Made by a program: the position numbers and the translations under genes. From Methanosarcina horonobensis HB-1 = JCM 15518 (lineage in GTDB: Archaea > Halobacteriota > Methanosarcinia > Methanosarcinales > Methanosarcinaceae), in the NCBI RefSeq assembly GCF_000970285.1, contig NZ_CP009516.1, positions 186,001 to 250,000 of the forward strand: a stretch of 64,000 bases of DNA, in the 5' to 3' direction. Under the pieces are notes generated by a model that searched no databases, was not told the DNA's origin, and was given only the letters and a program-made list of their open reading frames with translations. Position 1 is the first letter of the stretch; each line of letters starts with the position of its first letter. Positions 9,474 through 47,105 of this stretch are shown here, in pieces.

Positions 9474-9491
9474 TATGAAGGAGTCTGCCGT

Positions 9492-10628: not shown

Positions 10629-10657
10629 TTTTTTATTTTTTTAATATGGAAGGGAAT

Positions 10658-13801: not shown

Positions 13802-14707
13802 ATGACCTTAACTATCGCCGCAATGCCAGCCTATAATGAATCCAAATCGATCGCAAACATAATCTTGGGCTGCAGAAAATACGTTGACAAAGTAGTTGTC
13901 ATCGATGATGGTAGCCAGGATAATACCGCCGAGCTTGCAGAATCTCTTGGTGCCTATGTAGTTCGCCATGAAACCAACAAAGGCTACGGGGCAGCTCTCA
14001 AAAATTGTTTTGAAACCGCCCGCAGGCTCGATGCACAAGCAATGGTCATAATAGATTCTGATGGTCAGCATGACCCTCATGAGATCCCCAAACTCCTTGA
14101 TCCTCTGAAAAACGGTTTTGATCTGGTAATCGGCTCAAGGTTTGTTAACGGCAACGGCAAAAACGTCCCTCTCTACCGTAAGTTAGGAATGAAAGTCCTT
14201 GATGTTGCAACTATGATGGCAGGAGGTCTCAGAGTTACTGATTCTCAGAGCGGCTTCCGCGCTTATGGAAGAAAAGCTATTGAAACTATAAACTTAAGTG
14301 GTGAAGGTATGTCGGCAGGCTCTGAGATTCTCCTTCAGGCCCACGATCATTGCCTTAAGCATACCGAAGTGGAAATCCATTGCAGGTACGATGTAGAGAA
14401 TTGTTCAAGTCAAAACCCGTTTGTACATGGGCCTAAGGTTCTTTTGCGGCTTTTAAAGGATATGGAGTACAGGAGACCCTTATACTATTTTACAGCTCCT
14501 GGAATGTTTTTAGGTACAATTGGGATGTTCATGGGACTGAAATTTTTACAAAATTTTTACCTTGATGGAAATTTAAGTTTTGGGCCCACATTGTTGATGA
14601 TGTTACTGACTATTATTGGGATGTTCATGGCGTTTACAGGGGTCGTATTGCATGCTGTGTCAAGGACGATTCATCAAATTAATGGTCACAATTCTGAGAA
14701 TTTATAA
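13802..14707 (+). CDS. DPM-like GT2 glycosyltransferase (dolichyl-phosphate sugar synthase type)
   Basis: A 301-residue GT-A enzyme with the first strand AAMPAYNES, VVVIDDGSQDNT for the nucleotide, and the metal-binding DxD in IIDSDGQHDP. VTDSQSGFRAYG is characteristic of the DPM1/DPG synthase group, and two hydrophobic helices lie near the C-terminus. Such enzymes load a sugar onto dolichyl phosphate or start a lipid-linked glycan, as the archaeal AglJ does. GGGGTG precedes the ATG at 13802. Near-identical in layout to 33681-34571 and related to 46134-47105. It heads module B. Confidence 0.9.
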   Translation: MTLTIAAMPAYNESKSIANIILGCRKYVDKVVVIDDGSQDNTAELAESLGAYVVRHETNKGYGAALKNCFETARRLDAQAMVIIDSDGQHDPHEIPKLLDPLKNGFDLVIGSRFVNGNGKNVPLYRKLGMKVLDVATMMAGGLRVTDSQSGFRAYGRKAIETINLSGEGMSAGSEILLQAHDHCLKHTEVEIHCRYDVENCSSQNPFVHGPKVLLRLLKDMEYRRPLYYFTAPGMFLGTIGMFMGLKFLQNFYLDGNLSFGPTLLMMLLTIIGMFMAFTGVVLHAVSRTIHQINGHNSENL

Positions 14708-14924
14708 AACATTGAAGCATAGTTTATTAATTTCTATATAAATATAAAAATAATGTATTCTAATAACCAATATTGTCCTTGTCGTACAATCTCTTCAAAG
14801 AATTAAGCAAAAAGGAGGGCATTGAGACACCCGGGAATTAATTGGTGACATAGGATTATCTCTCAGCATCACTTCAGAGATCCTCAAAAGATGCAAAATA
14901 TGCAACTGTTGTTAGGTGAACTTT

Positions 14925-16337
14925 ATGGATAATAATGTTCTGATTCTTGGTGCAGGTCCAGCAGGGATGTCAGCTGCTTTAAGATTGCTCAATAATAACG
15001 TTAATTTTTCAGTAGTTGAAAAAGAGAATATTGTTGGGGGTCTTGCGAAAACAATAGATTTCGGACCGTTTTCTTTGGATATCGGTCCCCATATATTATG
15101 TACCAAACCCTACGTATATGATTATAATGAGAAAATATACCATTTCATCAGGGAGTTATTGGGAAAGCAACTGATCTTCTATGAAACATCGAATAGAAAA
15201 TATCTCGAAACTGTCCGTGTTGGCGGAGACGAATTTGACTACCCTATTCAAATCAAAAACGCCTTACAAAATGTCGGTTTTATTCATGCCCTGCACATGG
15301 TCTATGATTATATGGAGGCCAAATCTGCACGTAATTTGAAGGAAGATACATCATTTGAGCAGATAATAACCACCCAACTAGGGCAATCTCTTGCAGATCT
15401 TTTTATCCTTAAATACTCCGAAAAAACCTGGGGACTCAAATGCTCAGCCCTCTCTTCTGACCTGGCCTGGCGAGTTGGTGAGTTCTCAATACTGAGTGTT
15501 CTTATTGAGCAGCTATCAAACTCATGGAAGAATCTTAGGTCTACATCCGGGCACCCGGTCTGCTATCCCAAGCAGGGCATAGGATTAATCTGTGAGCAGA
15601 TTAGAGCGAACATCGAAAAGGGCAAGGTTGGCGAGATAAAGACCGAGTCCTATCCCGTACGTATTCTGCATGATAACGGACAAATTTGCGAAGTTGCAGT
15701 CTGCGAACAAGGGATCATCCAGTCATATCGTCCTGAATATGTTCTGTCGTCTATTCCGATCGGTCAGCTTATCCAGTTATTAGATCCTAGGCCACCTGAT
15801 GAGGTTATACATTCTGTTTTGAGCTTGAAATACAGATCGCATCTCTGTTTGTATTTAATTGTCAATAAAGACCGCGTGCTACGGGAACATTGTATTTACT
15901 ATCCAGATCCTGAAATCCCGTTTGCACGGATGATGGAACAGAAGAATTACAGTCGGGATACCTGCCCCGATGATATGACTGCTCTGGCGATTGAGTTTTT
16001 CTGTTGGTATGAGGATGATCTCTGGAATAATGATGACTCAGAACTTTTTAGGATTGCTATTTCTAAGTTGGAGGAACTAGGTATAGTCAAAGAGGATGAA
16101 GTCGTTGATTACTTTGTTCACAGAGAGCGATTTGCATACCCTGTATATGATCTTGGATATGCAGATCGTTTGAGAACTGTAACCACTTATTTAGAAGGCC
16201 TAAATAACCTCAAACTCATTGGACGCTCCGGGACTTTCACCTATATGGGCCAGTATCGTGCGATGGAAGCAGGCTCAAACGCCGCCGATAAAATCGTAGG
16301 TGAAATCTTTAAAGAATCTGGCGGTGATTTACCGTGA
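14925..16337 (+). CDS. FAD-dependent oxidoreductase, amine-oxidase / UDP-galactopyranose-mutase-like
   Basis: A 470-residue flavoprotein. The dinucleotide-binding GAGPAG is at residues 9-14, followed by VVEKENIVGGLAKT and DIGPHILCT, typical of the protoporphyrinogen-oxidase/UDP-galactopyranose-mutase group. In the C-terminal part FTYMGQYRAMEAGSNAA closes the FAD site. The ATG at 14925 is preferred to a GTG at 14916 because GGTGA sits just before it. The stop overlaps the start of the next GT4 by 4 bases. In glycan loci such proteins modify or isomerise nucleotide- or lipid-linked sugars; the exact reaction is not evident. Confidence 0.85.
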   Translation: MDNNVLILGAGPAGMSAALRLLNNNVNFSVVEKENIVGGLAKTIDFGPFSLDIGPHILCTKPYVYDYNEKIYHFIRELLGKQLIFYETSNRKYLETVRVGGDEFDYPIQIKNALQNVGFIHALHMVYDYMEAKSARNLKEDTSFEQIITTQLGQSLADLFILKYSEKTWGLKCSALSSDLAWRVGEFSILSVLIEQLSNSWKNLRSTSGHPVCYPKQGIGLICEQIRANIEKGKVGEIKTESYPVRILHDNGQICEVAVCEQGIIQSYRPEYVLSSIPIGQLIQLLDPRPPDEVIHSVLSLKYRSHLCLYLIVNKDRVLREHCIYYPDPEIPFARMMEQKNYSRDTCPDDMTALAIEFFCWYEDDLWNNDDSELFRIAISKLEELGIVKEDEVVDYFVHRERFAYPVYDLGYADRLRTVTTYLEGLNNLKLIGRSGTFTYMGQYRAMEAGSNAADKIVGEIFKESGGDLP

Positions 16338-17518
16338 AAATCCTGAGGGTTGCAGGTGACCTATACCCTGCTTTCGTTGGTGGGATTGCTATCCATGCCC
16401 ACGAGATGTCGAAAATGCAGGCGTCTGTGGGACATGAAGTGACAGTCTATACGTCCATCTGGGAAGACGAACCTCTGGAGGAAGTACGTGATAATTATCG
16501 CATAGTCAGGTTTAGAGGAATAACGATTTTCCGAAACCCGATATCGCCGAATCTATTTTATCGCCTGTTACGTGAGAGAAACAAATATGATGTCATTCAC
16601 GCTCACTCCCACCTGTATTCATCCACAGTATTTTGTGCCCTTATGAGGATGATAGGCTCGTCCCCCCTTGTCGTTACGAATCACGGTCTCATTTCGTCGA
16701 TCGTTCCCATGTGGCTACAGAAAATATACATCCCGACTATTGGCAGGTGGGTCTATGATACCGCTGATAGGATTATCTGTTACACAGAGACAGAGCGGGA
16801 TCAGTTAATTGATCTGGGGATCCAGCCCAAAAAGATAACGGTCATCCACAATGGAATAGATACAGAGCATTTTGCTCCTTTAACAAATATTCCTCCTAAG
16901 AAACAGATCCTCTGGATAGGAAAATATGTCCCGGGAAAGGGTGTCGAATACCTCTTGCGAGGCTTCCAGTTATTCTCAAAAAATTTCCCTGATTACACCC
17001 TTTTGATGATCGGAAGAGGACCCCGGAAGGATGATTGCCTAAGAATGCTTGAGGATCTGGGCCTCACGGAGAAGGTTATTCTCAGGGATTTTGTCGATAA
17101 TAAGGATCTCCCTGAGATCTATCAGCAATCCAGCCTGTTTGTCCTTCCAAGCCTTATGGAGGGTGTTCCAAGGGCAATCCTTGAAGCAATGGCCTGCGGC
17201 GTTCCGGTAGCCTGTACCGAACTCCCTCAGTTGGTCAAGATTGTCTCAGACTGTGGACTGTTGTTCCCGCTCAAGAATCCTGAGTCTCTGGCTGCTGCTC
17301 TTTCAACTCTGGTATCAGACACTGAGATGGCTCAAGCTTGCGGAAAGAATGGAAGGAAAAGAGCAGTCTCCATGTACTCTTGGAGCGACACTGTCTCCAA
17401 GACCTTGGATCTGTATGCCTCTCTTACCGGAGGTAAAGTGATGAATAACTCTCGCGAAAGTGAGGACGGCTATCTCAAACGCATATCTGGAGTTTCCAGT
17501 CATGATGAGGTGAGGTGA
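16334..17518 (+). CDS. GT4 family glycosyltransferase
   Basis: A 394-residue GT-B enzyme with LRVAGDLYPAFVGGIAIHAH at the N-terminus, VIHNGIDTEHF in the linker, and EX7E in MEGVPRAILEAMACGVPVA. It starts with GTG overlapping the previous stop (GTGA). The paralogue in the first cassette ends at KELI, whereas this one has about 27 additional residues (MNNSRESEDGYLKRISG and onward) before running into the broken epimerase. The tail probably arose at the deletion junction that removed the epimerase start. Base composition is higher in GC than the surrounding loci. Confidence 0.92.
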   Translation: MKILRVAGDLYPAFVGGIAIHAHEMSKMQASVGHEVTVYTSIWEDEPLEEVRDNYRIVRFRGITIFRNPISPNLFYRLLRERNKYDVIHAHSHLYSSTVFCALMRMIGSSPLVVTNHGLISSIVPMWLQKIYIPTIGRWVYDTADRIICYTETERDQLIDLGIQPKKITVIHNGIDTEHFAPLTNIPPKKQILWIGKYVPGKGVEYLLRGFQLFSKNFPDYTLLMIGRGPRKDDCLRMLEDLGLTEKVILRDFVDNKDLPEIYQQSSLFVLPSLMEGVPRAILEAMACGVPVACTELPQLVKIVSDCGLLFPLKNPESLAAALSTLVSDTEMAQACGKNGRKRAVSMYSWSDTVSKTLDLYASLTGGKVMNNSRESEDGYLKRISGVSSHDEVR

Positions 17519-17997
17519 GCCATATGCTGTTCTCCCTCCTTTATGGGACCTCAAATCTCGTCGCCGAGCACTACTCCAGGGTCTTCTATGAGGTCTACGG
17601 CCCCCGGATGCGCACGGACCTCGCGATCTCCGTTTTCACCAAAAAGATGCTCGTAAACGAACCGATCGCGGTCTTTGGGGACGGCGAACAGACCCATGAC
17701 TTCACCTATATTGACGATATCGTCTGGATGAACCGGAGGCTACTGAAGACACATCATGCCGATGGTTATGCGATGAACGTCGGCGGTGGTCACCAGATTA
17801 CAGTGAACGGCCTGATTGCTCATCTCAGAGAGATCACCGGAAGCGCTTCTGAAGTGGTGCACTCTGACAGGCAGAAGGGTGATGCGAAGCATACGCGGGA
17901 GTTGGTAGGGTACAGGTTGGAGACAACCATAAAGAATGGTTTAAAGAAATTTATGGGCGGTATACAGAATCTTCACGCTGCATGTCATAGTGACTGA
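17515..17997 (+). pseudogene. truncated NAD-dependent epimerase remnant
   Basis: Only the C-terminal half of an epimerase homologous to 783-1847 remains. The Rossmann domain is missing. The catalytic YGVSK reads YGTSN, so the essential Lys is Asn. Eleven residues between two VYG motifs are deleted (FYEVYG joined directly to PRMR), and the DTEDTLAGVD region is shortened. The short frame opens with a GTG overlapping the previous stop. It cannot bind NAD or catalyse epimerisation. GC content is high: 37 of 60 bases in 17581-17640 against 23 of 60 in the aligned part of the intact copy. Confidence 0.9.
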
Positions 17998-18006
17998 AGG
18001 ATTTCC

Positions 18007-19113
18007 ATGAAACTACTGGTCTGCACAACAGAGTATTTTCCGTACGGCGCAGGCATCGCCAACGTTGTATACAACGTCGTGGAACAGCTTAAAGGAATGG
18101 GTATTGAGTGTACGGTCTGTTCACCAACCGGTCCGGATATCAAACTAGGGAACCAAGCCCTGATACCGAAAATAGGTATCGGTGGGTTGCTCAACTACTG
18201 GCATCAGGCTTCCCGGTATTTCAAAGACAACGATTACGATGTCGTCTGGCTCCAGAATCCCTTTATTCTTACTGGAAATCCCTTCAAGCGTTGCTTGGTG
18301 ACAATGCACTCAACCTACTATGGTTCGAGCACGCATGGCGTCGGGACTTTCCCGCTTCACCTGTATAAGTCACTGGTGGCTCATATCGAACGTTATTGCC
18401 TTACTCGCATGCCTCCCGACACGCTCTTCACCGGCGTAGGCCAACCAGTCTGTGAAGAACTGGAAGAAATCGGGGTCGTACAGAATATGATAACCTGTAT
18501 CCCTAACGGGGTTAATGCCAGGCAGTTCCGCCCATTGGATGATAAGAAATCGGTGCGGAAGAAGTTCGGAATCCCAGAGGATGATATCGTTCTCCTGAGC
18601 GTCGGGCGGTTAACTCCCGCAAAACAACCCTTTACCATGATCGAGGTATTCTCGCACCTCGAGAAGAAGCTGGGCAACGTGACCCTCTGCATCGCAGGCA
18701 AAGGCGAGTTATTGGAAGAGATAAAAGGCTTTGTAAAGGAAAAAGGGTTGCGCAAAGTTCTTTTTCTTGGGCACGTAAACTATGAGTGGGATCTCCCTGA
18801 TCTCTATGCCTGTGCTGATTACTATATTATGACTTCGAAGTACGAGGGGTTGCCTCTGACACTGCTGGAAGCGATGGCTTCGGGCCTGCCATGCATAGTG
18901 TCTGATATTCCAAACCTGAGGGTTGTCGGAGATGCTGATTGCGGGATTATCCTCAATTACGGGAACATTAGTATGGCGTCCGATCAAATATTAGATTATA
19001 TCTCAAATGATCATTCTGATCATTCTCGAAATGCGAGAAAATATGCTCTTGACAAACTCGATTGGCATATTATTTCAGAGCAGTATCTTAAGGAGTTTTT
19101 AGGCTTAATGTGA
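18007..19113 (+). CDS. GT4 family glycosyltransferase
   Basis: A 368-residue GT-B enzyme, the same length as its paralogue 1896-3002. N-terminal TTEYFPYGAGIANVVYNVVE, linker CIPNGVNARQF, and canonical EX7E in YEGLPLTLLEAMASGLPC. AAGGAT precedes the ATG. The gene is GC-rich up to about 18950, after which the last 150 bases are AT-rich like the rest of the locus. This suggests a recombination edge near the 3' end. It probably uses the same donor as its paralogue. Confidence 0.92.
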   Translation: MKLLVCTTEYFPYGAGIANVVYNVVEQLKGMGIECTVCSPTGPDIKLGNQALIPKIGIGGLLNYWHQASRYFKDNDYDVVWLQNPFILTGNPFKRCLVTMHSTYYGSSTHGVGTFPLHLYKSLVAHIERYCLTRMPPDTLFTGVGQPVCEELEEIGVVQNMITCIPNGVNARQFRPLDDKKSVRKKFGIPEDDIVLLSVGRLTPAKQPFTMIEVFSHLEKKLGNVTLCIAGKGELLEEIKGFVKEKGLRKVLFLGHVNYEWDLPDLYACADYYIMTSKYEGLPLTLLEAMASGLPCIVSDIPNLRVVGDADCGIILNYGNISMASDQILDYISNDHSDHSRNARKYALDKLDWHIISEQYLKEFLGLM

Positions 19114-19185
19114 TGACATTACGTTAGACCTTTAGTTTGTCCCTGAACGATAGAATATATTGTAATCCATGAATAGGCAAGGAAT

Positions 19186-20310: not shown

Positions 20311-20392
20311 CTGGTATCATATAGCTAAAGCTCAAATAAATGATTACTTTCAGTAATGTGTTAATGAAATGTAACAATTTTGAGATGTTAAC

Positions 20393-22252: not shown

Positions 22253-22300
22253 AATCCAATTTCTTTATGAGGAATCTAATTTATCAAAAAGGGAGTTAAT

Positions 22301-25362: not shown

Positions 25363-25560
25363 TTTTTTATGAATTCGTTGCAATCATTTAATTTTAGAAG
25401 TATATATCACTATTCGAGTAAGTAAATTTAAATGTTTATAAAATATAATTTTTGGGTAAGTAGACTGAAGAATCTATTATTCGCAATTAAAAATAAGAAT
25501 AATTAATATTTTAACAAATTTTTGATTAATAACCTAGAATTTTAGATTTGAGGTAAATAA

Positions 25561-26070: not shown

Positions 26071-26101
26071 CTTGAATAAATTTCTTTTTTTCATTTATCT
26101 G

Positions 26102-26347
26102 ACTTTCCGCAGATGTCTTCAAAAAAATAACATTTTTCCTGTTATCGTTTTTGGAGAATTATTCGAATATCTTTAATTATTATCCCAACTGAATCTTCGG
26201 GAAATGGCTGCTGGAGGCTTTTAATGAAGGCAAAAGGTCGAGAATTGTAGGACATTTAAAAAACACATGCTTGAGTAACCAAGGAGATTTCCAGAAAAAA
26301 CGATAGCAAGAAAAATTATGAAAATTGAAAGGACATCTGCGGAAAGT
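26102..26347. mobile_element. MITE-like element with long terminal inverted repeats
   Basis: The 246-bp element fills the gap between the acetyltransferase and the convergent flippase. Outer repeats are a perfect 16-bp pair, ACTTTCCGCAGATGTC at 26102-26117 and its inverse at 26332-26347. Imperfect pairing continues inwards for about 40 more bases on each side. There is no open frame. It is a non-autonomous element or the two ends of a deleted IS. A transcript from either side could fold into a long stem. Confidence 0.65.
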
Positions 26348-26373
26348 GAGATTTATGATTCTACTAATTTTTC

Positions 26374-29400: not shown

Positions 29401-30330
29401 TTAAACTTCTTTAAACCATGACATTGTTCCAAGCAATTCCTCTTTAAATTCATTTTTTGGAGTATATCCAATTCCTTTAGCTCTTGAAATGTCTGCAAGG
29501 GAATGTTTTATATCTCCAGGTCTCGTAGAAACATATTCAGGCTTTATTTCTTTGTTAAGTATTTCGTTGATGTTGTTTACTAGTTCATTTATTGTAATTC
29601 TCCTTCCACATGCAATATTGAAAACTCCAGTCTGATCTGACTCACAGGAGAGTATATTCGCATCAACAACATTCTGAACAAATGTAAAATCTCTACTCTG
29701 TTCCCCATCCCCGTATATCACTGGACTCTCATCATTCAAAATCGCAGTAATAAATTTAGGAATTACAGCAGCATACTGGGAATTAGGATCCTGCCTTGGA
29801 CCAAAAACATTGAAATACCTTAGACTAACTGTTGGAAGCCCATAGAGGTCTTGAAAAACCCTGCAGTACATTTCTCCGGTTGCTTTTGTAATTGCATATG
29901 GAGACATTGGATTTATGGGCATATCTTCTCTTTTTGGAAGAGTTGGAGTGTCGCCGTACACTGAAGAGGATGAAGAAAATATTACTTTCTTAACTCCAGT
30001 GTCTCTTGCAGCTATTAAAACATTCAGTGTTCCTGTTACATTGGAACTATTTGAACTGAAAGGATCCTTCACACTTCTTGGAACACTGGGAATAGCTGCA
30101 AGATGAAAGACATAATCTTTATCTTTGAAAATTTCTGTTAAATTTAAATCTACTATGCTGCCTTTTATTACAGTTAGGTTCTTGTGGTCTAGCAGATGTT
30201 TTATATTTTCAATTTTGCCTGTAGATTCGTTATCTATGACTGTTACTTTGTTGTCCTCAAGTAACTTCTCAGTAAGGTGGGAGCCGATAAAACCCATCCC
30301 GCCAGTGACTACTACTTTTTTATTTTCCAA
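29401..30330 (-). CDS. NAD-dependent UDP-sugar 4-epimerase
   Basis: A 309-residue extended short-chain dehydrogenase with GGMGFIGSH near residue 10, SSSSVYGD, the catalytic YAITK pair, and RYFNVFGPRQDP. These are characteristic of the GalE/WbpP group that epimerises C4 of UDP-glucose, UDP-GlcNAc or the uronate forms. It starts with TTG only four bases after the dehydrogenase stop, so the two are an operon. The pairing suggests C6 oxidation followed by C4 epimerisation, giving a galacturonate-type sugar. The exact substrate is inferred. Confidence 0.9.
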   Translation of the reverse strand: MENKKVVVTGGMGFIGSHLTEKLLEDNKVTVIDNESTGKIENIKHLLDHKNLTVIKGSIVDLNLTEIFKDKDYVFHLAAIPSVPRSVKDPFSSNSSNVTGTLNVLIAARDTGVKKVIFSSSSSVYGDTPTLPKREDMPINPMSPYAITKATGEMYCRVFQDLYGLPTVSLRYFNVFGPRQDPNSQYAAVIPKFITAILNDESPVIYGDGEQSRDFTFVQNVVDANILSCESDQTGVFNIACGRRITINELVNNINEILNKEIKPEYVSTRPGDIKHSLADISRAKGIGYTPKNEFKEELLGTMSWFKEV

Positions 30331-30334
30331 AAGA

Positions 30335-32110
30335 TCATCTCTTGTAAACTTGTGAAACGGTTGAAATTTTTGAAGTTTGCTTTTGAAGTTTGCTTTCCCG
30401 AACTTCTTTTTTTATCCTCTGGATGTGCCCTCTTCCAAGAGCTTTGACTTCACAGCCGAGTTCGAAATATCTTCTTATTTTTTCGTCGGGTAATATCCCG
30501 AAGCAGTCAATAACTGCAATAGGTCCGCCTGCCATTTCTACAATGGCTTCCGGCTCAAGAGTAAAATATTGATCATGTGGAACTGCAAAAATCAGAGCTT
30601 CTATGCCTTTAACAGCTGCTGGGAATTCATTTTTCATTTTCAGCTCTGTTAGACCATCCTGATTTCTAAAGAAACGTTTCCAGGACTGGCCGGATGCCGG
30701 ATATGTGTCCTGGCTTTCCATCTCGTACCAGTGGTCTACATATGGGTCGTGGACACGCATCTCAGCGCCCATTTCCGTAAGTTTCCTTACAACAATTTCG
30801 CTTCCGCTGTATCTGGTATCTCCTACATCCTGCCTGTAGCTTGCTCCACAGATCAGGACCTCTGCTCCGGCAATATACCGGTCCATATTCCGTAGAGCGT
30901 CCCTTGTGAGCTCGGCTACGTGAAGAGCCCTGGTATCGTTAACGTCGATTGATGTTGGAGTGATTTTAAACACATCATCTCCATCTTCAAAACCCAGAAT
31001 GTGCTTGTATGCCCAGTAACCCAGCCCTCCGTCTTTTGGAAGACAGTAGCCGCCTATTCCCGGACCTGGGAAAATTATATTGCTGTGGGTCGGGCGCATT
31101 TTTATTGCATTTATCACTTTTATAACGTCCACACCGTTTCTTTCGGAAAAAAGGCTCCATTCATTGAGGAATGCGAGTATTGTCGCACGATATGAATTTT
31201 CAATAATTTTTGCAGTTTCGGATTCTATTGGCCTGTCCATTACCGTCAGGGGGTGGTCTCCGGTATTGATAACTTCTTTTAAGAATTTTTCAACTTTTTC
31301 TTTTGCTTCGTTATTGCAGCCAGCGCAGACCCTCCAGAAATCGCGCACACTTGCAACATAATCTTTTCCTGGCATCACTCTTTCATAGCTGTGTGCAAGC
31401 AGAGGGGTCGAATCTATTCCACGCTTGTAAAATGCTTTTTTTAGGAGTGGAAGTGCAACGAATTCTGTAGTTCCTGGAGCAACGGTTGTCTCGATCAGGA
31501 CAAGGCAATCAGGGCGGATGTTTTCTCCAATTGTTTTCATAGAGGATTCGAGTGCAGCCATATCTGCTTCGCCGGATCTGACGTTTCCAAGCTCACACTT
31601 TATGTAATCACATTGAATATCTACCACGACAACATCTGCAAGTTTCAGGCAGTCATTTGTGTAGGTAGCTACCAATGTTTTTGTTTCAAGAACACAACGC
31701 TTTATAATCTCATCTACTTCTTTATCTTCTGATTTTACAGGAGACTGTCCTCTGTTGAGCAGAGGAATCTTCCAGTAACTGCGGATGCTTGGTCTCTGAC
31801 AGCCAATTACAAATTTACTGTAGTTACCATTTTCGTTTTTTGTATCTGCTATAATCGCAGCCATTACAGCTCCAACGAATCCGACTCCCATTACAACAAC
31901 AATTTCTTTTCCTTCTATTCGGGCTTGATTTACGAGTTTTTCAATTCTTTTGAATTCCTTTTCATACTCTTCAGGAACGGGAAGTGGAAATTTTTCTCCT
32001 TCTGGACTAACCGAATAGTCTTTAATTTGAGGAGTAAAGTCTATAAGTGAGTCCCTCTCATCTTGGAGGACTTCAGTTTCAATAAAATGGCTTTTAATTT
32101 GAGTAGACAT
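30335..32110 (-). CDS. nucleotide-sugar dehydrogenase, long form (UDP-HexNAc 6-dehydrogenase-like)
   Basis: An NAD-dependent oxidase of a UDP-hexose or UDP-HexNAc C6 hydroxyl to a carboxylate. The Rossmann motif is MGVGFVGAVMAA, the middle domain has SYERVMPGKDY, and the catalytic Cys is in PGIGGYCLPKD. The C-terminal NAD/UDP-binding domain contains GASYRQDVGDTR, the usual GxxYKxxxxDxR. At 591 residues it is about 150 longer than ordinary family members: the N-terminal 70 residues precede the Rossmann fold and insertions occur in each domain. An ATG at 32110 behind GGAGAGAAAGGT is preferred to a TTG at 32170. It heads module C. Confidence 0.9.
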   Translation of the reverse strand: MSTQIKSHFIETEVLQDERDSLIDFTPQIKDYSVSPEGEKFPLPVPEEYEKEFKRIEKLVNQARIEGKEIVVVMGVGFVGAVMAAIIADTKNENGNYSKFVIGCQRPSIRSYWKIPLLNRGQSPVKSEDKEVDEIIKRCVLETKTLVATYTNDCLKLADVVVVDIQCDYIKCELGNVRSGEADMAALESSMKTIGENIRPDCLVLIETTVAPGTTEFVALPLLKKAFYKRGIDSTPLLAHSYERVMPGKDYVASVRDFWRVCAGCNNEAKEKVEKFLKEVINTGDHPLTVMDRPIESETAKIIENSYRATILAFLNEWSLFSERNGVDVIKVINAIKMRPTHSNIIFPGPGIGGYCLPKDGGLGYWAYKHILGFEDGDDVFKITPTSIDVNDTRALHVAELTRDALRNMDRYIAGAEVLICGASYRQDVGDTRYSGSEIVVRKLTEMGAEMRVHDPYVDHWYEMESQDTYPASGQSWKRFFRNQDGLTELKMKNEFPAAVKGIEALIFAVPHDQYFTLEPEAIVEMAGGPIAVIDCFGILPDEKIRRYFELGCEVKALGRGHIQRIKKEVRESKLQKQTSKISTVSQVYKR

Positions 32111-32519
32111 ACCTTTCTCTCCAAGAATTTCAGTTAAATTATTTTTTAACTCAAATCTTTTTAAACTCAAATATATTTTTGATGAAGACTTTGTGCCGAA
32201 ATAACTGCAATTTTCATACTTTTTACCGTATCTTTGTCAAGTAAACTCTTCAGAAATACTAGTTTTTCAATATGTAACTTACTAAATTATTTTAACCTAT
32301 CGTTTCCCTTTAAACGCTCAGAGCATATCGATTTTTATAAAAAAGAATATTTACCCGAACCTTCATTTTTTTAGACAGTTTGAATTATTCTCTTATTCCA
32401 TGAGAAATCTTTAAATAGTTCTTTCTAACTAAGATCGCCTCTAACGAAAGCCAAAAACAGATTCTATTTATTGAGCAAAATTGCAGTGTAAAGAAAAGTG
32501 AAATTATAAGAATATAGAA
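32111..32519. other. AT-rich intergenic region
   Basis: About 400 bases upstream of the leftward dehydrogenase. It must contain that promoter, but I cannot point to a certain TATA box. No gene is seen. Confidence 0.5.
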
Positions 32520-32691
32520 AATTCAAAATCAAAGATTTCAGGTTTGTTTTAACATTTTCAGCTCGATAAGCTTTAGCTGCAAAATATCTTTTTTCTGTCA
32601 GGCCAGGTTCTTTGAGAATATCTGTTCCGCTTTTCGAGATCTCAAGGTTCTGATAAGCTGCGTCAACAACCGTGTTTCCTGTAACAAAGAT
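32520..32691 (-). pseudogene. internal fragment of a UDP-GlcNAc 2-epimerase (wecB) gene
   Basis: Read on the minus strand, the frame gives FVTGNTVVDAAYQNLEIS, continuing to KRYFAAKAYRAENVKT. This aligns with the middle of the intact epimerase at 57660-58733 (FVTGNTVVDAAYQNLEIS, then YIVATVHRAENVDSK). Only about 55 codons remain. The conserved VHRAEN has become AYRAEN. The fragment ends exactly where a GT2 fragment begins on the other strand. Confidence 0.85.
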
Positions 32692-32863
32692 TTAACCGTG
32701 ATTCTTCCGGCTTACAATGAAGAGGTCTCCATAGGCAGTGTTGTCCTTAGGTAGCGTTGTCCTGCTCGCCAGGCGGTACGCCGACAGGGTGATCGTGGTT
32801 GATGACGGAAGTTCGGACAGGACGGTCGAAGCTGCAGTAATGGCAGAGGCTGAGGTGGTTATG
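32689..32863 (+). pseudogene. 5' fragment of a DPM-like GT2, frameshifted
   Basis: The plus strand encodes DLTVILPAYNEEVSIGSVVL, then a stop, then continues in another frame with VLLARRYADRVIVVDDGSSD. A partial duplication of the AGTGTTGTCCTT stretch causes the break. The sequence matches the N-terminal part of the GT2 at 46134-47105. It lacks the DxD domain and everything after. Confidence 0.85.
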
Positions 32864-33295
32864 TCTTCCTTATGATTTCCTTTTCCCTTGTTAGCGCATC
32901 GTCATTATGAAAGAAATAGTCGAGCGTTAGATGGCAGGGGTATTCAGGCAGATAGAACCTGAGTAATATATTTATTCAATAACAATTAGTTAAGTTTAAT
33001 AATTAGTATCTCTATTCAGTATTAGTAGTTCAATAGAATATCCGATATTTCAATTTAATAATAGGTTATTTAATTTAATCAATTTCAATAATGAGGTCAT
33101 TAATCATTATTCAAGTTCGGCAACTGGAGCATTAAGGCAAGTTATGTACTGTTTTTATGCCTATTATGCTTTGATAGTCACACATGACCTTATTTATTCT
33201 TTTATAAATTTATTTATTCACTATATAGTTTATATAGTAAAACCTCCCATTATTTTTCATTAAATCTTTATATCTATTATTCAGGGGTTATTCGA
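32864..33295. other. decayed AT-rich region
   Basis: No gene. It contains runs of ATTTAATAAT-like sequence, and near 33200-33240 a stretch loosely resembling the TATA-like element upstream of the other GT2 heads. A short broken frame at about 32907-32972 may be another gene end. Confidence 0.4.
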
Positions 33296-33469
33296 ATGAA
33301 TGAAAAATCGTACATGGGAAAGGCTACCTATGTAATAGTCAAAAAAGAGGAAAATACGCTTACTAGAGGCTCAGACGTTAGTAGTGTAAACAGTATCGTG
33401 CCAACTTATGAAGACGCGATATCTCTCGGAAGTATCTTTTTACTTAGCAAACTTTACATTGATATCCAG
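33296..33469 (+). pseudogene. 5' fragment of a second GT2 of the 46134 type
   Basis: The first 58 codons (MNEKSYMGKATYVIVKKEEN through SLGSIFLLSKLY) align with the N-terminus of the intact GT2 at 46134-47105 (MGKSARIFIKKEE through SIGSIVLLTKY). The bases just before the ATG, TTATTCGAATGAATG, also match TAATTCGAATGAATG there. The key PALNEE motif has decayed to PTYEDA, and after LYIDI the homology stops. The open frame continues to 33622 without recognisable coding content. Confidence 0.85.
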
Positions 33470-33641: not shown

Positions 33642-33680
33642 TTTTGACTACTACCCCCACAAAATTCAGAGATGTCCCCC

Positions 33681-34571
33681 ATGACCCTAACAATTGCGGC
33701 AATGCCCGCCTATAATGAATCCGAATCAATTGCAAACGTAATCCTGGGCTGCAGGAAATACGTCGACAAAATAGTTGTCGTCGATGACGGCAGCCTTGAC
33801 AACACCGCCGAGCTCGCTGAAACCCTTGGTGCCTACGTAGTCCGCCATGAAACCAATAAAGGTTACGGAGCAGCATTGAATAATTGTTTTGAAACAGCTC
33901 GCAAGCTCGATGCACACGCAATGGTCATAATCGATTCTGACGGCCAGCACGACCCTCATGAGATTCCCAAACTTCTTGAACCCTTAAAACAGGGATTTGA
34001 CCTGGTAATAGGTTCAAGGTTCGTTAACGGCAACGGTAAAAACGTCCCTCTCTACCGGAAATTCGGAATGAAAGTTCTCGATATTGCAACTATTATGGCA
34101 GGCGGTCTTCGCGTTACGGATTCTCAAAGCGGCTACCGTGCCTACGGTAAAAAAGCTATTGAAAATATAAATCTAAGCGGCTCCGATATGTCGGCAGGCT
34201 CTGAAATTCTCCTTCAGGCTAGGGATCATCATCTGAAACATACTGAGGTGGAGATCCATTGCAGGTACGATGTAGAAGATCGTTCCAGTCAACATCCATT
34301 TTTACATGGGCCTAAGGTCCTATTTCAACTTTTAAGAGATATGGAGTACAGGAGACCCTTATACTATTTTACAGCTCCTGGAATGTTTTTAGGTACAATT
34401 GGGATGTTCATGGGACTGAAATTTTTACAAACTTTTTATCTCGGTGGAAGTCTGAGTTTTGGGCCTACATTGTTGATGATGCTACTGACTATTGTCGGAA
34501 TGTTCATGGCGTTTACGGGAATTATATTGCATGCGATCTCCAAGATGATATGCCAGATCAAATATAGCTAA
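33681..34571 (+). CDS. DPM-like GT2 glycosyltransferase (dolichyl-phosphate sugar synthase type)
   Basis: A 296-residue GT-A enzyme closely similar along its whole length to 13802-14707. Motifs are AAMPAYNESES, VVVDDGSLDNT, DxD in IIDSDGQHDP, and VTDSQSGYRAYG, with two C-terminal membrane helices (FTAPGMFLGTIGMFMG and MMLLTIVGMFMAFTGI). An ATG at 33672 is possible, but the paralogue starts at MTLTIAAMPAYN. It heads module D and probably charges the lipid carrier used there. The similarity to the module B copy is much higher than among the GT4 pairs, indicating recent copying or conversion. Confidence 0.9.
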   Translation: MTLTIAAMPAYNESESIANVILGCRKYVDKIVVVDDGSLDNTAELAETLGAYVVRHETNKGYGAALNNCFETARKLDAHAMVIIDSDGQHDPHEIPKLLEPLKQGFDLVIGSRFVNGNGKNVPLYRKFGMKVLDIATIMAGGLRVTDSQSGYRAYGKKAIENINLSGSDMSAGSEILLQARDHHLKHTEVEIHCRYDVEDRSSQHPFLHGPKVLFQLLRDMEYRRPLYYFTAPGMFLGTIGMFMGLKFLQTFYLGGSLSFGPTLLMMLLTIVGMFMAFTGIILHAISKMICQIKYS

Positions 34572-34594
34572 AATAATCACTGGGGGTCATCTTT

Positions 34595-36976: not shown

Positions 36977-37076
36977 AAAAGCAGAATACTATTTTATAAT
37001 TCTTGAATTCCTTAAAGCCATCTTATATTGTTTCCGAGATTAAGATATTATTGTGCATTTTTTAAGGGGATTTTGC

Positions 37077-38270: not shown

Positions 38271-38283
38271 GGTGTGGGTTCAA

Positions 38284-39426: not shown

Positions 39427-39449
39427 TTCAATATACGAGGAATATTGTC

Positions 39450-40589: not shown

Positions 40590-42801
40590 TCTTGGCTATA
40601 TCAGAGTAAGTAACCGAAATCTCCTAATTGTGTGTTTGTCCATTCAATTGGCTTTTCTGGGAACTGTTGGATTTGATTTGTTAAATTTAAATATTCCAGT
40701 TCTAAGACAACTAATTGGTTTCATATATCTAACATTTATACCTGGATTTTTAATTCTCGAAACACTTAGATTAAATAAATTGAGTTTAATAGAAGTCATT
40801 TTATATTCCACAGGTTTAAGTTTATGTTTTTTAATGTTTTTAGGCGTGCTAATAAACTTTTTATTCCCTTTAGTCGGAATTTCTTCCCCACTATCTGATA
40901 TTCCTCTGATAGTCACAATAAGCTTTGTAGTTATTTTATTATTTATTTTTAATATGTCTACAAAGAGTAATTCTTATTACGAGTTTGAATATAAAAATAC
41001 TTCCTTTTTATTTATACTTTTTTTATTGTTAATTCCTTTTTTAGCAATTTTTGGAACATTGTTGGTTAATTTCTATCAAAATAACTTATTATTAATGATA
41101 TCAATTCTAATAATCATTGGAGTAGTGATTTTTCTTGTTTTTAAGGATTCTATCTCTAAAAATGTTTACCCATTATCTATTTATGTCATTTCTATTTTCT
41201 TGTTGTATCACTATTCGTTGATATCTATGGATCTATGTGGATGGGATATTAATACAGAATACTATTTTTCAAGACTTACAGTACAAAATTCATTCTGGGA
41301 TCCGGACTTATCGAATAATGTCAATTCAATGATCAGTATTGGTGTATTAATGCCAGTTTATTCTATCTTGTTGAATCTAGATTTAATTTGGATCTTTAAA
41401 ATAATATGTCCGCTATTGTTTTCCTTAGTTCCTCTTTGTCTTTATAGCATATACATTAAACAAACAAATGAAAAAGTAGCACTTCTATCAGCTTATTTTT
41501 TTGTAACATTGTTTGTTTTTTACACAGAAATGTTATCTTTGGTTAGACAACAAATCGCTGAATTTTTTTTGATATTATTGATTTCTTTGATGGTAAATGG
41601 AAATCTCAGTAACTCAAAGAGATCTTTCTTATGTATTATTTTTAGTTTTTCTTTAGTTGTGTCTCACTATGGTTTGAGTTACATATATATGTTCAGTCTT
41701 ATCTTTTCAGGAATTTTATTATTTATATCTAATAATTTGTGGATAAAAAAACTTAAAAATATGTCTCACTTTATAAATATATTTGCAAGCCCAAAAAAGG
41801 TCTTTATCACTCAATCTTATATTTTGCTTTTCGTTGTATTCGCATTGGCGTATTATATATATACCTCAAATTCTTCTGCGTTTTTGTCTCTTACTAGAAT
41901 GATTAATCACACGTTTAATTCTATATTCACTGATTTTTTAGACCCTGGGAGTCCTTCTGGTTTCAGTCACATAACAAGTAGTTCAATTTCACCACTTTAT
42001 AATGTCGCTAAATATCTTCACATATTCTCACAATTTCTTATTATTGTAGGAGTTATAACCTCTTTAAAAGAAACCAAGTTTATAAATATCACAACTGAAT
42101 ACAAGTTATTTTCCATTATTTATTTACTTATTTTAGTAGTATCTATCGTCTTCCCTTTTATAGAAATATCTTTCAGTACGTCAAGAATTTATCATATATC
42201 TTTAATATTTTTATCCCCCTTTTGTGTTATTGGTGGAATTACGATTATCAAACTTACTTCTAACATACTTAATATTTCTTGGACAGAAAAGCGATTTAAG
42301 AATTCACTAAAAATATTATCTATATTCTTTTCCATACTATTATTATTTAATACTAAATTTATTTTTGTAATTGCAAACGAAAGGCCGACGTCAATTCCTC
42401 TAGGTCAAGAAAAAATTGATCTGTATGGAGATGAAGATGATATAATTAGTTTTTATTCTCAATATCATCCTGAAACTGAAATTAATGGTGCAAAATGGTT
42501 ATCACGATATAGAGAACATTCTTTTAATATTTATGCAGATAGAGCTCAAGTGTACAATAAACTTACCAGCTATATAATGCCAAAAGAGTATGGTTTGGTA
42601 GAGTTGACAAATGACACAACAATAAATGAGAATGCATATGTTTTTTTAGGTTACTCTAACGTCCATTTTGGATTGATGTTTAATAAAAAATATAGTGAAA
42701 AAAGTTGGTACGGTATTAATGAAATTTCTCAAATACTCGATACCTCATTCTTGGTTTATTCAAATAGTGGATCGGGCATATATTATAAGCCAAAAGTATA
42801 A
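40579..42801 (+). CDS. very large polytopic membrane protein, DUF2206-like
   Basis: A 740-residue protein with about 14-16 hydrophobic segments and a C-terminal soluble region of about 140 residues. It starts with GTG inside the preceding GT4 gene. A loop near residue 220 has MDLCGWDINTEYYF with clustered acidic residues. It differs from the D-x3-H signature of the other three large membrane proteins but may be functionally equivalent. It resembles the archaeal predicted membrane protein family DUF2206, an assignment made from memory and overall architecture. A GT-C-like transferase or polymerase role is inferred. It ends 16 bases before the convergent flippase stop. Confidence 0.8.
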   Translation: MYSNLGYIRVSNRNLLIVCLSIQLAFLGTVGFDLLNLNIPVLRQLIGFIYLTFIPGFLILETLRLNKLSLIEVILYSTGLSLCFLMFLGVLINFLFPLVGISSPLSDIPLIVTISFVVILLFIFNMSTKSNSYYEFEYKNTSFLFILFLLLIPFLAIFGTLLVNFYQNNLLLMISILIIIGVVIFLVFKDSISKNVYPLSIYVISIFLLYHYSLISMDLCGWDINTEYYFSRLTVQNSFWDPDLSNNVNSMISIGVLMPVYSILLNLDLIWIFKIICPLLFSLVPLCLYSIYIKQTNEKVALLSAYFFVTLFVFYTEMLSLVRQQIAEFFLILLISLMVNGNLSNSKRSFLCIIFSFSLVVSHYGLSYIYMFSLIFSGILLFISNNLWIKKLKNMSHFINIFASPKKVFITQSYILLFVVFALAYYIYTSNSSAFLSLTRMINHTFNSIFTDFLDPGSPSGFSHITSSSISPLYNVAKYLHIFSQFLIIVGVITSLKETKFINITTEYKLFSIIYLLILVVSIVFPFIEISFSTSRIYHISLIFLSPFCVIGGITIIKLTSNILNISWTEKRFKNSLKILSIFFSILLLFNTKFIFVIANERPTSIPLGQEKIDLYGDEDDIISFYSQYHPETEINGAKWLSRYREHSFNIYADRAQVYNKLTSYIMPKEYGLVELTNDTTINENAYVFLGYSNVHFGLMFNKKYSEKSWYGINEISQILDTSFLVYSNSGSGIYYKPKV

Positions 42802-42817
42802 CTATATATCATAATCT

Positions 42818-44104
42818 TTAAATCCATTTGTTTTTCCAAACAAGTACTCCTGTAATTACTGTACCAATTCCATAGCTTAATACCCATGCATATCCAATAC
42901 CAATAAGTCCAAATTTAAGCATAAATATATAACTTGATCCAATAAGGATTAAAAATATAATCCCGCTTAATATCACAATCTCATTAACATCTTTTTGAAT
43001 CCTTTTTATTGTAATATATATTGAAGTTATGGTCATAAAAATACTTGTAAAGATCATAATTTTTAACAAATCACCACCATTTTCTGAATACGTTTTTCCA
43101 AATATGTTTAAAAACCAATCGCTTTCAAAGTAAAGAATAACTAAAGCAGGAATTATGATAGAAAATACAATACTAAATGATTTTATTATCATCTTCTTCA
43201 ATTCTTTCCCATAACTTCCTTCTACAAGTAGAGACATGCTAATGGATCCTGGTATCATAAAAAGTAAAGAAGCTATAGAAAAAGCGATATAGTAATAGGC
43301 GGTTTCTTCTACACCTAGTATGTTCAACACAAGAAGTGGAAGAATATAATTTGGAGCTGTTGTAAACCATACTGCAAGATAATTTCCAACAGAAAAATTA
43401 AATGCTTCGTTTAGAAAGGTTTTATCAATTTTAAAGTTCAATTTTATTCCAAAGAGAGCGAGATATATTATTGAGAATATAGATGCAACTATAAATGAAG
43501 CTCCTATTGCGTCAAAAATACCTATGGCTTTCAGTTTTATGAATGGAAGAAGAAATAATATCCTAGTACTTACGAAAAGACTTTGAATAAATTGAAGACC
43601 AGCTTTGCGAAGCGCAACAAATGAAATTCCTGCAAGAATTGCGAAGGAGTTTGCAGATAGAAATATTAGGTATGTACATGCATTCGATGGAGACTTTAAG
43701 AAGTTTAAGTTTGGAGATAGTACATCAATTCCTATGATAAATAATATTCCAAAAACAACTGCAAAAAAAGTTGTAACTATCCAAGATGTATTGAATATAC
43801 TATTTTTGTCATATTCAGGGAAAAAACGAATAATAGAATAATCTAAACCAAATCTAGAAAACAGGACTATGAGATTCATTGATGAAAGCAACGCTGTTGC
43901 AATGCCGACGTCTAGGGGTGAGTAAAACTTTGCAGCTAAAGTCCAGAAGACAAACCCAAAACCTGCGCTCGAAATTGAGTAAAGCATCATAAAAAATGAG
44001 TTTTTGAGTAAGGGACTCTTCAAAAAGGTAACTCGGCTATTAGATATGTACTGATTCATAAACAAAAGTCCATTTTTATTTTTTATTGTTCTAAGTTTTA
44101 ACAT
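42818..44104 (-). CDS. polysaccharide flippase, Wzx-like
   Basis: A 428-residue polytopic protein. After a positively charged start comes SPLLKNSFFMMLYSISSAGF and KFYSPLDVGIATALLSSMNL, the typical first two helices of oligosaccharide flippases. About 12 hydrophobic segments are visible. An ATG at 44059 is an alternative start. It faces module D with a 16-base intergenic gap, the same convergent arrangement as the flippase at the end of module B. This suggests it exports the module D product from its own promoter. Confidence 0.91.
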   Translation of the reverse strand: MLKLRTIKNKNGLLFMNQYISNSRVTFLKSPLLKNSFFMMLYSISSAGFGFVFWTLAAKFYSPLDVGIATALLSSMNLIVLFSRFGLDYSIIRFFPEYDKNSIFNTSWIVTTFFAVVFGILFIIGIDVLSPNLNFLKSPSNACTYLIFLSANSFAILAGISFVALRKAGLQFIQSLFVSTRILFLLPFIKLKAIGIFDAIGASFIVASIFSIIYLALFGIKLNFKIDKTFLNEAFNFSVGNYLAVWFTTAPNYILPLLVLNILGVEETAYYYIAFSIASLLFMIPGSISMSLLVEGSYGKELKKMIIKSFSIVFSIIIPALVILYFESDWFLNIFGKTYSENGGDLLKIMIFTSIFMTITSIYITIKRIQKDVNEIVILSGIIFLILIGSSYIFMLKFGLIGIGYAWVLSYGIGTVITGVLVWKNKWI

Positions 44105-45169
44105 TCCAAGTTTTTCTATTATTTATGGATTTTTGATTTAAGATAACTGAAAAGAAGTATTAAGCTCAATTTTCCTATTTTTTTATGCTCTTAAGCATAT
44201 ATCCATTCTCAATTTTTAGTACTTATCCTGCATTAACTTCAAGTTCACGCTAGTTGGAGCTGTAGAATTTTATCCATTCTCAAGACTAATAATGCGAGTC
44301 ACTTCAAGAAGCCTAATGTTCCAAGGATATCCAAGTTTGCAGTAGTATACCCAGGAGTTTGAAAAGAGACCTACATATGACTCTAGTATACAAGGTTGTA
44401 AATTTCTTCAGGCTAAAATTTCTTGATTATTTTGTCTTGTTTGTTGGGATAGCTAGGGTATTCATAACGCATGAAATTTTATCTCTTTGTAGGAGTCTCT
44501 ACAAAGGCGATCCATTCTTATAAAATCGAATGAAGAAGGTCTTCTTTTAATCCCATGAACATTCCTTTATCAAATAAAAGTTCAGCTAAATAAACTCGAG
44601 TATCTATAATTCCTATTTCTATATAACTTTAGGCAATTTTCCACTTCATTACTATTACAGGTTTTAAACGGGTTATGAATGAGCCTATCCCAAAACCAAT
44701 TTTGTTCCCAAATAGTGAGAGTTTAAAATCATTTTTCATTACTGAGAACTCGGGTGATTATCCCAAATTCGAGATTTGAGACGCAATTTTGAGTTTTGGG
44801 GTCAGCTCAATAAGTAAGGATCAGATTTAGTAAACTCCCTTAAATAGTACATGTTGTGATCTCAGCTCTTATGCCGAGAATAATTGATTTTTACATTCTT
44901 AAGCACCTTTGTCGGGATTTCTCTAACTTTCTTAAGTTTTAATGAATTACACTTTGCAGTTATTTAAGTTATTTGATTCATATTTATACTTTACCCGTTT
45001 TTCTGTTTTTATTCTCTTGCAATTAATATTTTTTTACTGTAACTGAAAAATTCTTATGATGCTTTAATGTAATTTCTCAAATAAAGGCTAGCTTTGAGGT
45101 CATCAGAGGTGCGGTATACTTAAAGGTTGAGCTAAATAGTAAATTGGAATCATTATTTGAATGTCTATG
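44105..45169. other. long non-coding, decayed region
   Basis: More than 1 kb without a recognisable gene. It contains a MITE-like inverted repeat pair at 44681-44808 and, at its right edge, the start of a GT2 remnant. The first bases must hold the promoter of the leftward flippase. No other structure stands out. Confidence 0.55.
44681..44808. mobile_element. possible 128-bp MITE
   Basis: The ends GAGCCTATCCCAAAAC (44681-44696) and the inverse of GAGCTGACCCCAAAAC (44793-44808) agree at 13 of 16 positions. AAT flanks both sides, as a short target duplication would. There is no open frame inside. The CCCAAAA-type end is seen in several insertion sequence families, but I cannot name one. Confidence 0.45.
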
Positions 45170-45714
45170 CCAATACACGCCTGCGTACTGGCGCATAGGT
45201 CAGACTATTCTTGACAAGGCAACGGTCCTGAACTCCGGCGTCGAAATTACCGACTCCCAGAGCGGGTTCTGTGCCTTCTCAGCCTCCAAAAAAGATATTT
45301 TCCGCTTCAATGCGAAGGAGGATGGCAATAGAGAGCGAAATGCTTGCAGACGCAGGCAGGTACGGATTAAGGGTAAAAGAGGTGCCCATCGGAGTCAGGT
45401 ACGATGTCGACGGCTCAACCGAAAATCCGGTACGGCACAGGCTGGCTGTTTTGTTAAAGATTATTAAGGATATAGAACATAACAAACCTCTGTACTCCTT
45501 TACTCTACCGGGTTCCATCCTCAGGATGGTAGGGTTATACATGGGGCTCATTTTTTTACGCACTTTTTACCCTGGCAAAGGTCTGGAATTCGGGCCTACT
45601 ATGCTGATGATCCTGTTAACTCTGGTTGGGGTTTTTATGTTTTTTGCCGGAATTCTTCTGCACTCGATAGCTGGACTAATCACGCATTTAGGGCATTTGA
45701 AGCCCGAAAATTAG
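45170..45714 (+). pseudogene. C-terminal half of a DPM-like GT2, frameshifted
   Basis: Homology to the intact neighbour 46134-47105 starts at YTPAYWRIGQTILDKAT and runs through ITDSQSGFCAFSASKKDIFR. A one-base insertion just before 45322 then shifts the frame, and the rest (MAIESEMLADAGRYGL to the C-terminal helices and LGHLKPEN) continues in the other frame. The nucleotide- and metal-binding N-terminal half is missing. It lies on the same strand about 420 bases upstream of the intact gene, so the two look like a former tandem pair. Confidence 0.9.
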
Positions 45715-46133
45715 TTTAAGCAGAAACATTGAGGAAGATTGTTGAGATCGACTCATAAGGATTATTATGTTCTCCATATGGTTAAAAGTTGGTTTGATTT
45801 ATTTATGCAGTTATAAATGTCTTTTTTGAGGCATATTTCTAATTTAGAATCTATTAATCATTGTATCTATTTCTTGCATGTAGGTAGTTTGAGAGAGGAC
45901 AATTCTTCATATCTTTCTGGCAATGTGGTCGTTAAGATCTGAGATAAATCAACGAAATTCCATATTTTTTTCTAGCTTTAAATATATATTAATAATATTA
46001 TTTCTCAAACATTTATACTATTATTTATGTTTAAATAAATTTTTATAGTAGCCTCTACATTACTTTATCAGTATAATGTTAGAGAAATCTGCACTAATAA
46101 TCTTATTAAACTATTCTGTTTGGGGTAATTCGA
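45715..46133. other. intergenic region upstream of the module E GT2
   Basis: Contains the 36-bp element at 46014-46049 and a GGGGTAA ribosome binding site shortly before 46134. No gene is seen. The sequence immediately before the ATG (AATTCGAATGAATG) is shared with the GT2 remnant at 33296. Confidence 0.55.
46014..46049 (+). promoter_or_regulatory. 36-bp conserved element, second copy
   Basis: One mismatch from 13604-13639. TATA-like core with the start codon of a DPM-like GT2 84 bases downstream. The two GT2 genes are of different subtypes, so the element is more conserved than the genes it precedes. Confidence 0.55.
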
Positions 46134-47105
46134 ATGAATGGTGAACTGCTCATGGGCAAAAGTGCCCGGATATTTATAAAAAAAGAGGAAATTTCAGATG
46201 TAAGGGGTACATCTCCTCAAAATGTAACCGTGGTTCTCCCTGCCCTCAACGAGGAAGTATCTATTGGCAGCATAGTGCTTCTTACAAAGTATTTCTCCGA
46301 CAACGTTATCGTGGTCGATGACGGTAGCACTGATCGCACAGCTGAAATTGCCAGAAATGCAGGAGCTTATGTGGTTGTTCACGAGGTTAATAAAGGCAAA
46401 GGTGCAGCTCTCAGGACCGGATTTAAGGCCGCAGCAGACTTCGGTGCGGATATTATAGTTACAATGGATTCTGATGGTCAGCACAACCCTGCAGATATCC
46501 CAAAACTTGTAGCCCCCATTATTGACGGTTATGCAGAAATGGTGAATGGTAGCCGTTATCTTAGCCACAGGGATAAAAATACCCCGATTTACCGCCGTGT
46601 CGGCCAGACTATTCTTGATACAGCCACAAATATGAATTCCGGCCTCAAGATTACAGATTCTCAGAGTGGTTTTCGCGCTTTTGCAGCTTCAACAAAAGAT
46701 ATCTTTCGCTTCAGTGCACAGGGTATGGCAATAGAGAGTGAAATGCTCGCAGATGCAGGCAAATCGGGCCTCCGCATAAAAGAAGTAGAAATCGGAGTCC
46801 GTTATGACGTTGACTGCTCAACCGTAAACCCGATAAAACATGGTTTAGGCGTCCTTGTCATGGTTTTAAAGGATATCGAGTTTTACAGGCCTCTCTATTA
46901 CTTCACAGCCCCCGGAATTGCTCTTGGAGCAGGCGGTCTGATTATGGGTGCCCATTTTCTGCATGAATTTATTCTTGGTAGAGGGCTGGATTTCGGGCCT
47001 ACGATGCTTATGATCCTGTTTATCATGATAGGGACTTTTATGGCATTGACCGGAATATTGCTGCATTCGGTGTCTGCGATTATGAGGGAGACGAAGGCGG
47101 TTTAA
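46134..47105 (+). CDS. DPM-like GT2 glycosyltransferase, longer subtype
   Basis: A 323-residue GT-A enzyme with an additional N-terminal segment of about 25 residues (MGKSARIFIKKEEISD) before VVLPALNEEVSIGS. Motifs are VVDDGSTDRT, DxD in TMDSDGQHNP, and ITDSQSGFRAFA, with two C-terminal helices. It belongs with dolichyl-phosphate sugar synthases and AglJ-like enzymes that start lipid-linked glycans. It is less similar to the pair at 13802/33681 than those are to each other. Three broken copies of this subtype lie elsewhere (32689, 33296, 45170). It heads module E. Confidence 0.9.
   Translation: MNGELLMGKSARIFIKKEEISDVRGTSPQNVTVVLPALNEEVSIGSIVLLTKYFSDNVIVVDDGSTDRTAEIARNAGAYVVVHEVNKGKGAALRTGFKAAADFGADIIVTMDSDGQHNPADIPKLVAPIIDGYAEMVNGSRYLSHRDKNTPIYRRVGQTILDTATNMNSGLKITDSQSGFRAFAASTKDIFRFSAQGMAIESEMLADAGKSGLRIKEVEIGVRYDVDCSTVNPIKHGLGVLVMVLKDIEFYRPLYYFTAPGIALGAGGLIMGAHFLHEFILGRGLDFGPTMLMILFIMIGTFMALTGILLHSVSAIMRETKAV

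Follow-up and report, generated by a model that had tools for sequence, protein, structure and literature searches.

Why should the variable part of an archaeal glycosylation locus carry the same kind of glycosyltransferase gene at the head of one module after another, and is that gene the place at which the modules are joined? The question is raised by a 64,000-nucleotide (nt) stretch of Methanosarcina horonobensis HB-1 (contig NZ_CP009516.1, positions 186,001 to 250,000), which we call the window (G000:C1:186001-250000; G000 is this single-contig Methanosarcina genome of 5.02 Mb, and other G numbers denote further genomes of the genus). The window makes up most of a glycosylation superlocus encoding family 4 and family 2 glycosyltransferases (GT4 and GT2), epimerases, UDP-sugar dehydrogenases, flippases, pyruvyl transferases, and a DUF2206 protein. 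It spans the variable part of this large locus, in which each glycan module is an operon with a DPM/AglJ-like GT2 gene first. An earlier annotation made from the letters alone (the sequence-only reading) had suggested that homologous recombination between these GT2 heads exchanges whole modules and leaves GT2 fragments as scars. From a comparison at the species level, with one genome per species (31 Methanosarcina genomes searched, 17 of them read in detail), we propose that the heads probably act as common joints at which homologous recombination inserts, replaces, or stacks glycan modules.

Three intact heads lie in the window, each first in its module, as had been recognized previously. Those of module B (13802-14707, plus strand; also placed by tree) and module D (33681-34571, plus strand, with the start at 33672 or 33681) are AglJ-like genes of the T1 type. 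The head of module E (46134-47105, plus strand) belongs to a second subfamily, T2; it shows about 50% amino acid (aa) identity to the head of module B and 82% to the T2b head to the left of the window. All told, G000 has seven intact DPM/AglJ-like genes of the family, plus fragments: three T1-type (window 13802 and 33681 and G000 262830) and four T2-type (G000 183473, 184677, and 4274198 and window 46134). The catalytic domain PF00535 is found in all three window heads (E values of 1e-23 to 9e-26). Their best NCBIfam match is AglJ (TIGR04182), at 140-159 bits against a curated cutoff of 325, which is not reached, and their nearest solved relative is the dolichol monophosphate mannose synthase 5mlz (E values of 2e-19 and 2e-12). 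Because of these two best matches, we predict that the heads likely start glycans on dolichol phosphate by loading the first sugar. The two T1 heads, earlier described as nearly identical, share 83.7% DNA and 87% protein identity, and a distant copy in G030 is about as close to them (82-85% aa); they are, as claimed, far closer to each other than are the GT4 pairs of the window (43-49% aa). Across Methanosarcina, 83% of 65 GT2 genes open a run, and 58% in addition head a tight codirectional one, as against 32% and 6%, respectively, for GT4 genes. GT2 matches were obtained in all 31 genomes, mostly in several copies; those in G022 are weak (4e-44) and probably belong to another GT2 family.

One indication that modules turn over at these genes comes from gene content. 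Between conserved flanks (on the left up to G000 172.7 kb, on the right from G000 246.6/250.4 kb), six genomes (G004, G005, G006, G029, G030, and G002) have no module at all, which speaks against the modules being fixed throughout the genus. Differing modules occupy the site in G000, G008, G009, G010, G011, G018, G020, G023, and G024, the draft contigs of G010 and G011 covering just part of it. In 26 of 28 pairs drawn from the eight genomes with a T2b head, between-genome homology stops -39 to +3 nt from the T2b stop codon, and differing modules follow, so that the variable modules begin right there; given the divergence of intergenic DNA, it is in part to be expected that homology stops where a gene does, which to that extent weighs against our proposal, the informative part being the absence of a homologous module afterwards. 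The exceptions are G000/G009, with a common start of module A, and G010/G024 (+122). The expectation that breakpoints would lie in or next to GT2 genes is thus borne out for the T2b stop codon, although other breakpoints fall in leaders and inside modules. The converse arrangement, the same module behind different heads, also occurs. The first module gene is common to G010, G007, G003, and G004 at 91-94% aa identity, and their head pairs have 70-75% DNA identity, except for G003/G004 (81%); a similar case involves G024, G030, G011, and G003. Likewise, module A stands behind a T2b head in G000 and G009 and behind a T1 head in G018.

Further evidence comes from recombination within the heads themselves, for which we rely on trees, identity runs, and synteny. 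In G008, two core-T1 heads flank a 14.7-kb glycan insert and share 576 nt (-160 to +416) without any difference; differences lie on both sides of this repeat, and the outer flanks, upstream of the left copy and downstream of the right one, are native, which is the pattern that a crossover with donor DNA at a head would leave. In G007, a 0.64-kb direct repeat, comprising the T2a 3' tip, the leader, and the T2b start, surrounds an insert of 16.8 kb, headed by a gene in which the T2b start is fused to another GT2. The T2b head of G018 is chimeric in trees, its catalytic part grouping with T2b (support of 0.96) and its membrane part with T2a (0.999). More generally, T2a genes form one clade by their membrane part and are scattered among T2b by their catalytic part, which is closer to that of T2b from the same genome (P = 0.0007, versus 0.17 for the 3' part, with the related genomes not being independent); the catalytic parts of T2a and T2b evolve in concert. 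The sister genomes G006 and G029 have a median identity of 94.5% over 260 kb, within which the kilobase windows at ≥99.7% form one 9-kb tract, across the T2a/T2b pair, and nowhere else. At a second locus of this pair, 100% tracts reach up to 0.95 kb before a head, and a 795-nt tract with one difference extends from nt 574 of the head into the next gene, beyond which the modules differ.

At module borders, GT2 copies that are chimeric or share perfect tracts are hence present in G008, G006/G029, G007, and G018, and the window itself contributes just a 94-nt tract of perfect identity between its two T1 heads (14459-14552 and 34338-34431, both plus strand). This is a small gene conversion tract (permutation P = 0.0002), the length of which is reached by 1 of 76 identity-matched between-genome pairs, namely, G006/G029. 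A 3SEQ-like site permutation screen gave many hits and was used solely for seeing breakpoints pile up near codon 200, because such a test takes no account of rate variation along the gene. Several other candidates were discarded: chimerism between T1 and T2 in the window heads was rejected, as identities are flat window by window, at about 43-67% nt; a blastn match that seemed to link a T2 with a T1 head was explained by ordinary cross-homology; and in exact matches of 250-380 nt from tandem copies, the same DNA had been counted twice.

Taking these findings together, we envisage the following course of events. Related GT2 heads with related leaders are found in every module, at the resident site, and in the core pathway; because of this relatedness, incoming and resident DNA could pair at the heads. 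Homologous recombination would then take place at the leader, inside the head, or in nearby common genes, the crossovers inside the head often falling near codons 200-215, between the catalytic and membrane parts. Modules would thereby be inserted, replaced, or stacked downstream of a GT2 head, and superseded heads would persist as fragments. The tracts and chimeras in GT2 heads, the GT2 direct repeats around inserts, and the turnover at GT2 3' ends are shown by the comparison of genomes; judging from the relatives and the one 94-nt tract, head crossovers appear to have caused the module insertions in G000 itself.

Several observations weigh against this proposal. One breakpoint lies in a leader, 0.95 kb upstream of a head; others lie inside modules, after the first one to four genes; and one site of change, at 3707.7-3727.9 kb in G007, is without a GT2 gene. 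With breakpoints in leaders and within modules as well, we regard the GT2 genes as frequent joints and not as exclusive anchors, and the exchange originally suggested, though supported by the content changes, tracts, chimeras, and direct repeats in relatives, has to be qualified in this respect. Paralogues that are AglB-like by position show conversion tracts too, and GT2 genes are therefore not unique substrates. Insertion sequence (IS) remnants are found at module borders, the window's own heads show a 94-nt tract only, and the comparison is one at the species level. A bolder version, which we put forward only tentatively and consider rather doubtful, is that the initiator GT2s are dedicated recombination hubs, in which a crossover where the catalytic part meets the membrane part would exchange whole modules and create a chimeric initiator as well. 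Were this the case, a single event would alter a glycan together with its starting enzyme, and archaea would have a capsule-switching-like diversification under virus or mating selection.

The fragments in the window help in reconstructing its history. Those reported near 32689, 33296, and 45170 are real and lie at module borders; however, all three are of the T2 kind, as is the head at 46134, and hence they do not derive from genes of the 13802/33681 type. Two of them, at 32687-32881 (plus strand, a 5' part covering about nt 35-192 of the gene) and 45115-45722 (plus strand, a 3' part covering about nt 336-909), are complementary and match nonoverlapping parts of the T2var genes of G008, G010, G020, and G023 at 71-78%. 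The simplest reading of these alignments is that one T2var gene was split by an ~12-kb block carrying the T1 head and module D. The third, at 33190-33353 (plus strand, the extent running from 33044 or 33190), is the weakest, matching a leader and the first 58 nt of a T2 gene at 61-66% nt identity (E values of 1e-10 to 1e-13). Eleven GT2 fragments were counted in the regions examined in the genus, and the distance to an intact GT2 is no more than 1 kb for 8 of them, whereas 14% of intergenic sequence lies that close (binomial P = 2e-5). Among the pieces in other genomes are an orphan GT2 3' tip in G003 and, in G008, a 112-nt GT2 3' tip ending at the stop codon that is repeated (94.6%) around a HepT-like/nucleotidyltransferase pair. 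Direct repeats that recombine by crossover leave no fragment behind; the fragments are therefore not the scars of such an event between the two window heads, as the sequence-only reading would have them, but fit insertion beside an older head or into it, with subsequent decay.

How far the GT2 genes take part in these events, as opposed to merely marking borders, is best judged against the alternative that they stand at heads just because the initiating enzyme and its promoter come first, with the modules moving via conserved flanks or by illegitimate recombination. Head position is indeed a strong operon feature, the GT2 pair of the 9-kb G006/G029 tract sits in the middle and not at the edges, one tract stops 0.95 kb before a head, and flank-mediated exchange is the known model for such islands (PMC4033161). 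Nevertheless, this alternative is already weakened by the chimeric heads, by the GT2 tips repeated on either side of inserts, and by perfect tracts that begin or end within a head, and we deem it unlikely. The proposal of GT2 heads as joints also fares better than one in which the rearrangements are due to IS elements or small repeats, with the GT2 fragments as bystanders. An internally deleted IS copy does lie at the A/B border (12560-12996, strand not assigned), with nine further copies in the genome at about 93% and an intact transposase relative of 375 aa in G030; a short dispersed repeat is present at 44678-44811; and identical IS-like open reading frames (ORFs) occur near modules in G003 and G009. 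However, the C/D border has no IS, nor do the junctions of G008 and G006/G029, where the repeats flanking the inserts are GT2 sequences, and we therefore judge this explanation quite improbable. Least probable is an element integrating site specifically at GT2 3' ends and leaving a repeated tip, in the manner of tyrosine recombinases at tRNA genes, for although such tips are seen in G008 (112 nt, to the stop codon) and G007, with the orphan in G003, the repeats range from 112 nt to 1.4 kb and do not all cover the same part of the gene, and the window module proteins scanned with Pfam have no integrase or recombinase domain.

The recombinational joints proposed here for the GT2 heads have several parallels. 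In bacterial capsule switching, as at the pneumococcal cps locus, the type of surface polysaccharide is altered by recombination in common DNA around type-specific genes; cps is usually one locus between nonglycan genes, whereas the common DNA in Methanosarcina is the repeated initiator gene of a multimodule array. Bacteroides genomes have several capsular polysaccharide operons, each with the same first gene family (upxY/upxZ), but those conserved heads are regulators and not an initiating GT2 used as a recombination joint. Archaeal surface glycans can determine virus sensitivity and mating preference, and, to our knowledge, the exchange of whole glycan gene sets has been little described in methanogens. 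Closest in kind are the replacement flexible genomic islands of bacteria and archaea, in which lineages exchange, by homologous recombination, surface glycan gene sets that have the same role but differ in their genes (PMC4033161). As in those islands, conserved flanks here enclose different gene content of the same role, and recent events appear as identical tracts in otherwise diverged genomes (the 100% tracts of G006/G029 against their 94.5% median). Those islands, however, are exchanged whole through conserved flanks, whereas Methanosarcina modules are stacked, with the repeated head gene as an internal joint and breakpoints within the gene. In Haloferax, aglJ, encoding the first-sugar transferase, borders an N-glycosylation cluster of variable content, and one recombination event within aglJ has been described (PMC5867893). 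AglJ is also the closest named family of the Methanosarcina heads, but Haloferax has one aglJ per cluster, mostly of vertical descent, with no multicopy heads, stacked modules, GT2 fragments, or chimeras reported (PMC5867893). No description of GT2-headed modules in Methanosarcina was found in the open-access literature searched. For glycan islands at large, exchange by homologous recombination is already known, archaea included, and what is new is the stack of modules jointed at initiator genes. Here, the exchange leads back to one particular repeated gene, and chimeras, tracts of perfect identity, and scars have survived. This archaeal counterpart of bacterial capsule switching is open to testing in a genus for which genetic tools exist, and it accounts for the several seemingly redundant DPM-like genes and fragments per Methanosarcina genome.

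Further features of the window and its surroundings complete this picture. Module A (1-12516, plus strand) is syntenic with G018 and G009, and its T2-type GT2 heads lie at G000 183473-184444 and 184677-185648, 2.5 and 1.3 kb left of the window. The sequence-only reading missed the deleted IS copy at the A/B border. At the other end, a gene with an acylphosphatase domain (60645-61325, plus strand) is the conserved right anchor of the variable region; its orthologue is directly preceded by an intact T2var GT2 in G010 and G020. Head B has an AT-rich, promoter-like leader element (13603-13639, plus strand) that agrees in 36 of 37 nt with one upstream of head E (46013-46049, plus strand); as a genus-wide regulatory signal this 37-nt element was rejected, just its AT-rich, TATA-like part recurring. 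The border before module D holds a remnant of a UDP-GlcNAc 2-epimerase-like gene (32503-32691, minus strand). Nearby, at 29401-32170 (minus strand), is an epimerase and UDP-sugar dehydrogenase pair, oriented opposite to its module and 85-89% identical to module-end genes in G004, G030, and G007, which might be a second shared border element. The dispersed repeat at 44678-44811, of ~134 bp, is 97% identical to a copy at G000 2696487, has about a dozen more diverged copies, and looks like a miniature inverted-repeat transposable element or an IS end.

Outside the window, the core loci of G002, G004, G005, and G008 contain large paralogues related to G000 270.6 kb, putatively AglB-like by position, with strong conversion tracts (in G008, a 185-nt perfect run). 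The HepT-like/nucleotidyltransferase pair of G008 (C1:169454-170103) is a toxin-antitoxin pair situated between a GT2 gene and the repeat of its last 112 nt. In G001, the syntenic site (C1:5508-5517 kb) is without the whole block corresponding to G000 174-274 kb, including the core T1 GT2 that is present in nearly every other genome searched. Finally, far from the glycan locus, G000:C1:2370486-2370785 (locus L012) is an orphan ORF consisting of a GT2 C-terminal part alone (44% aa).

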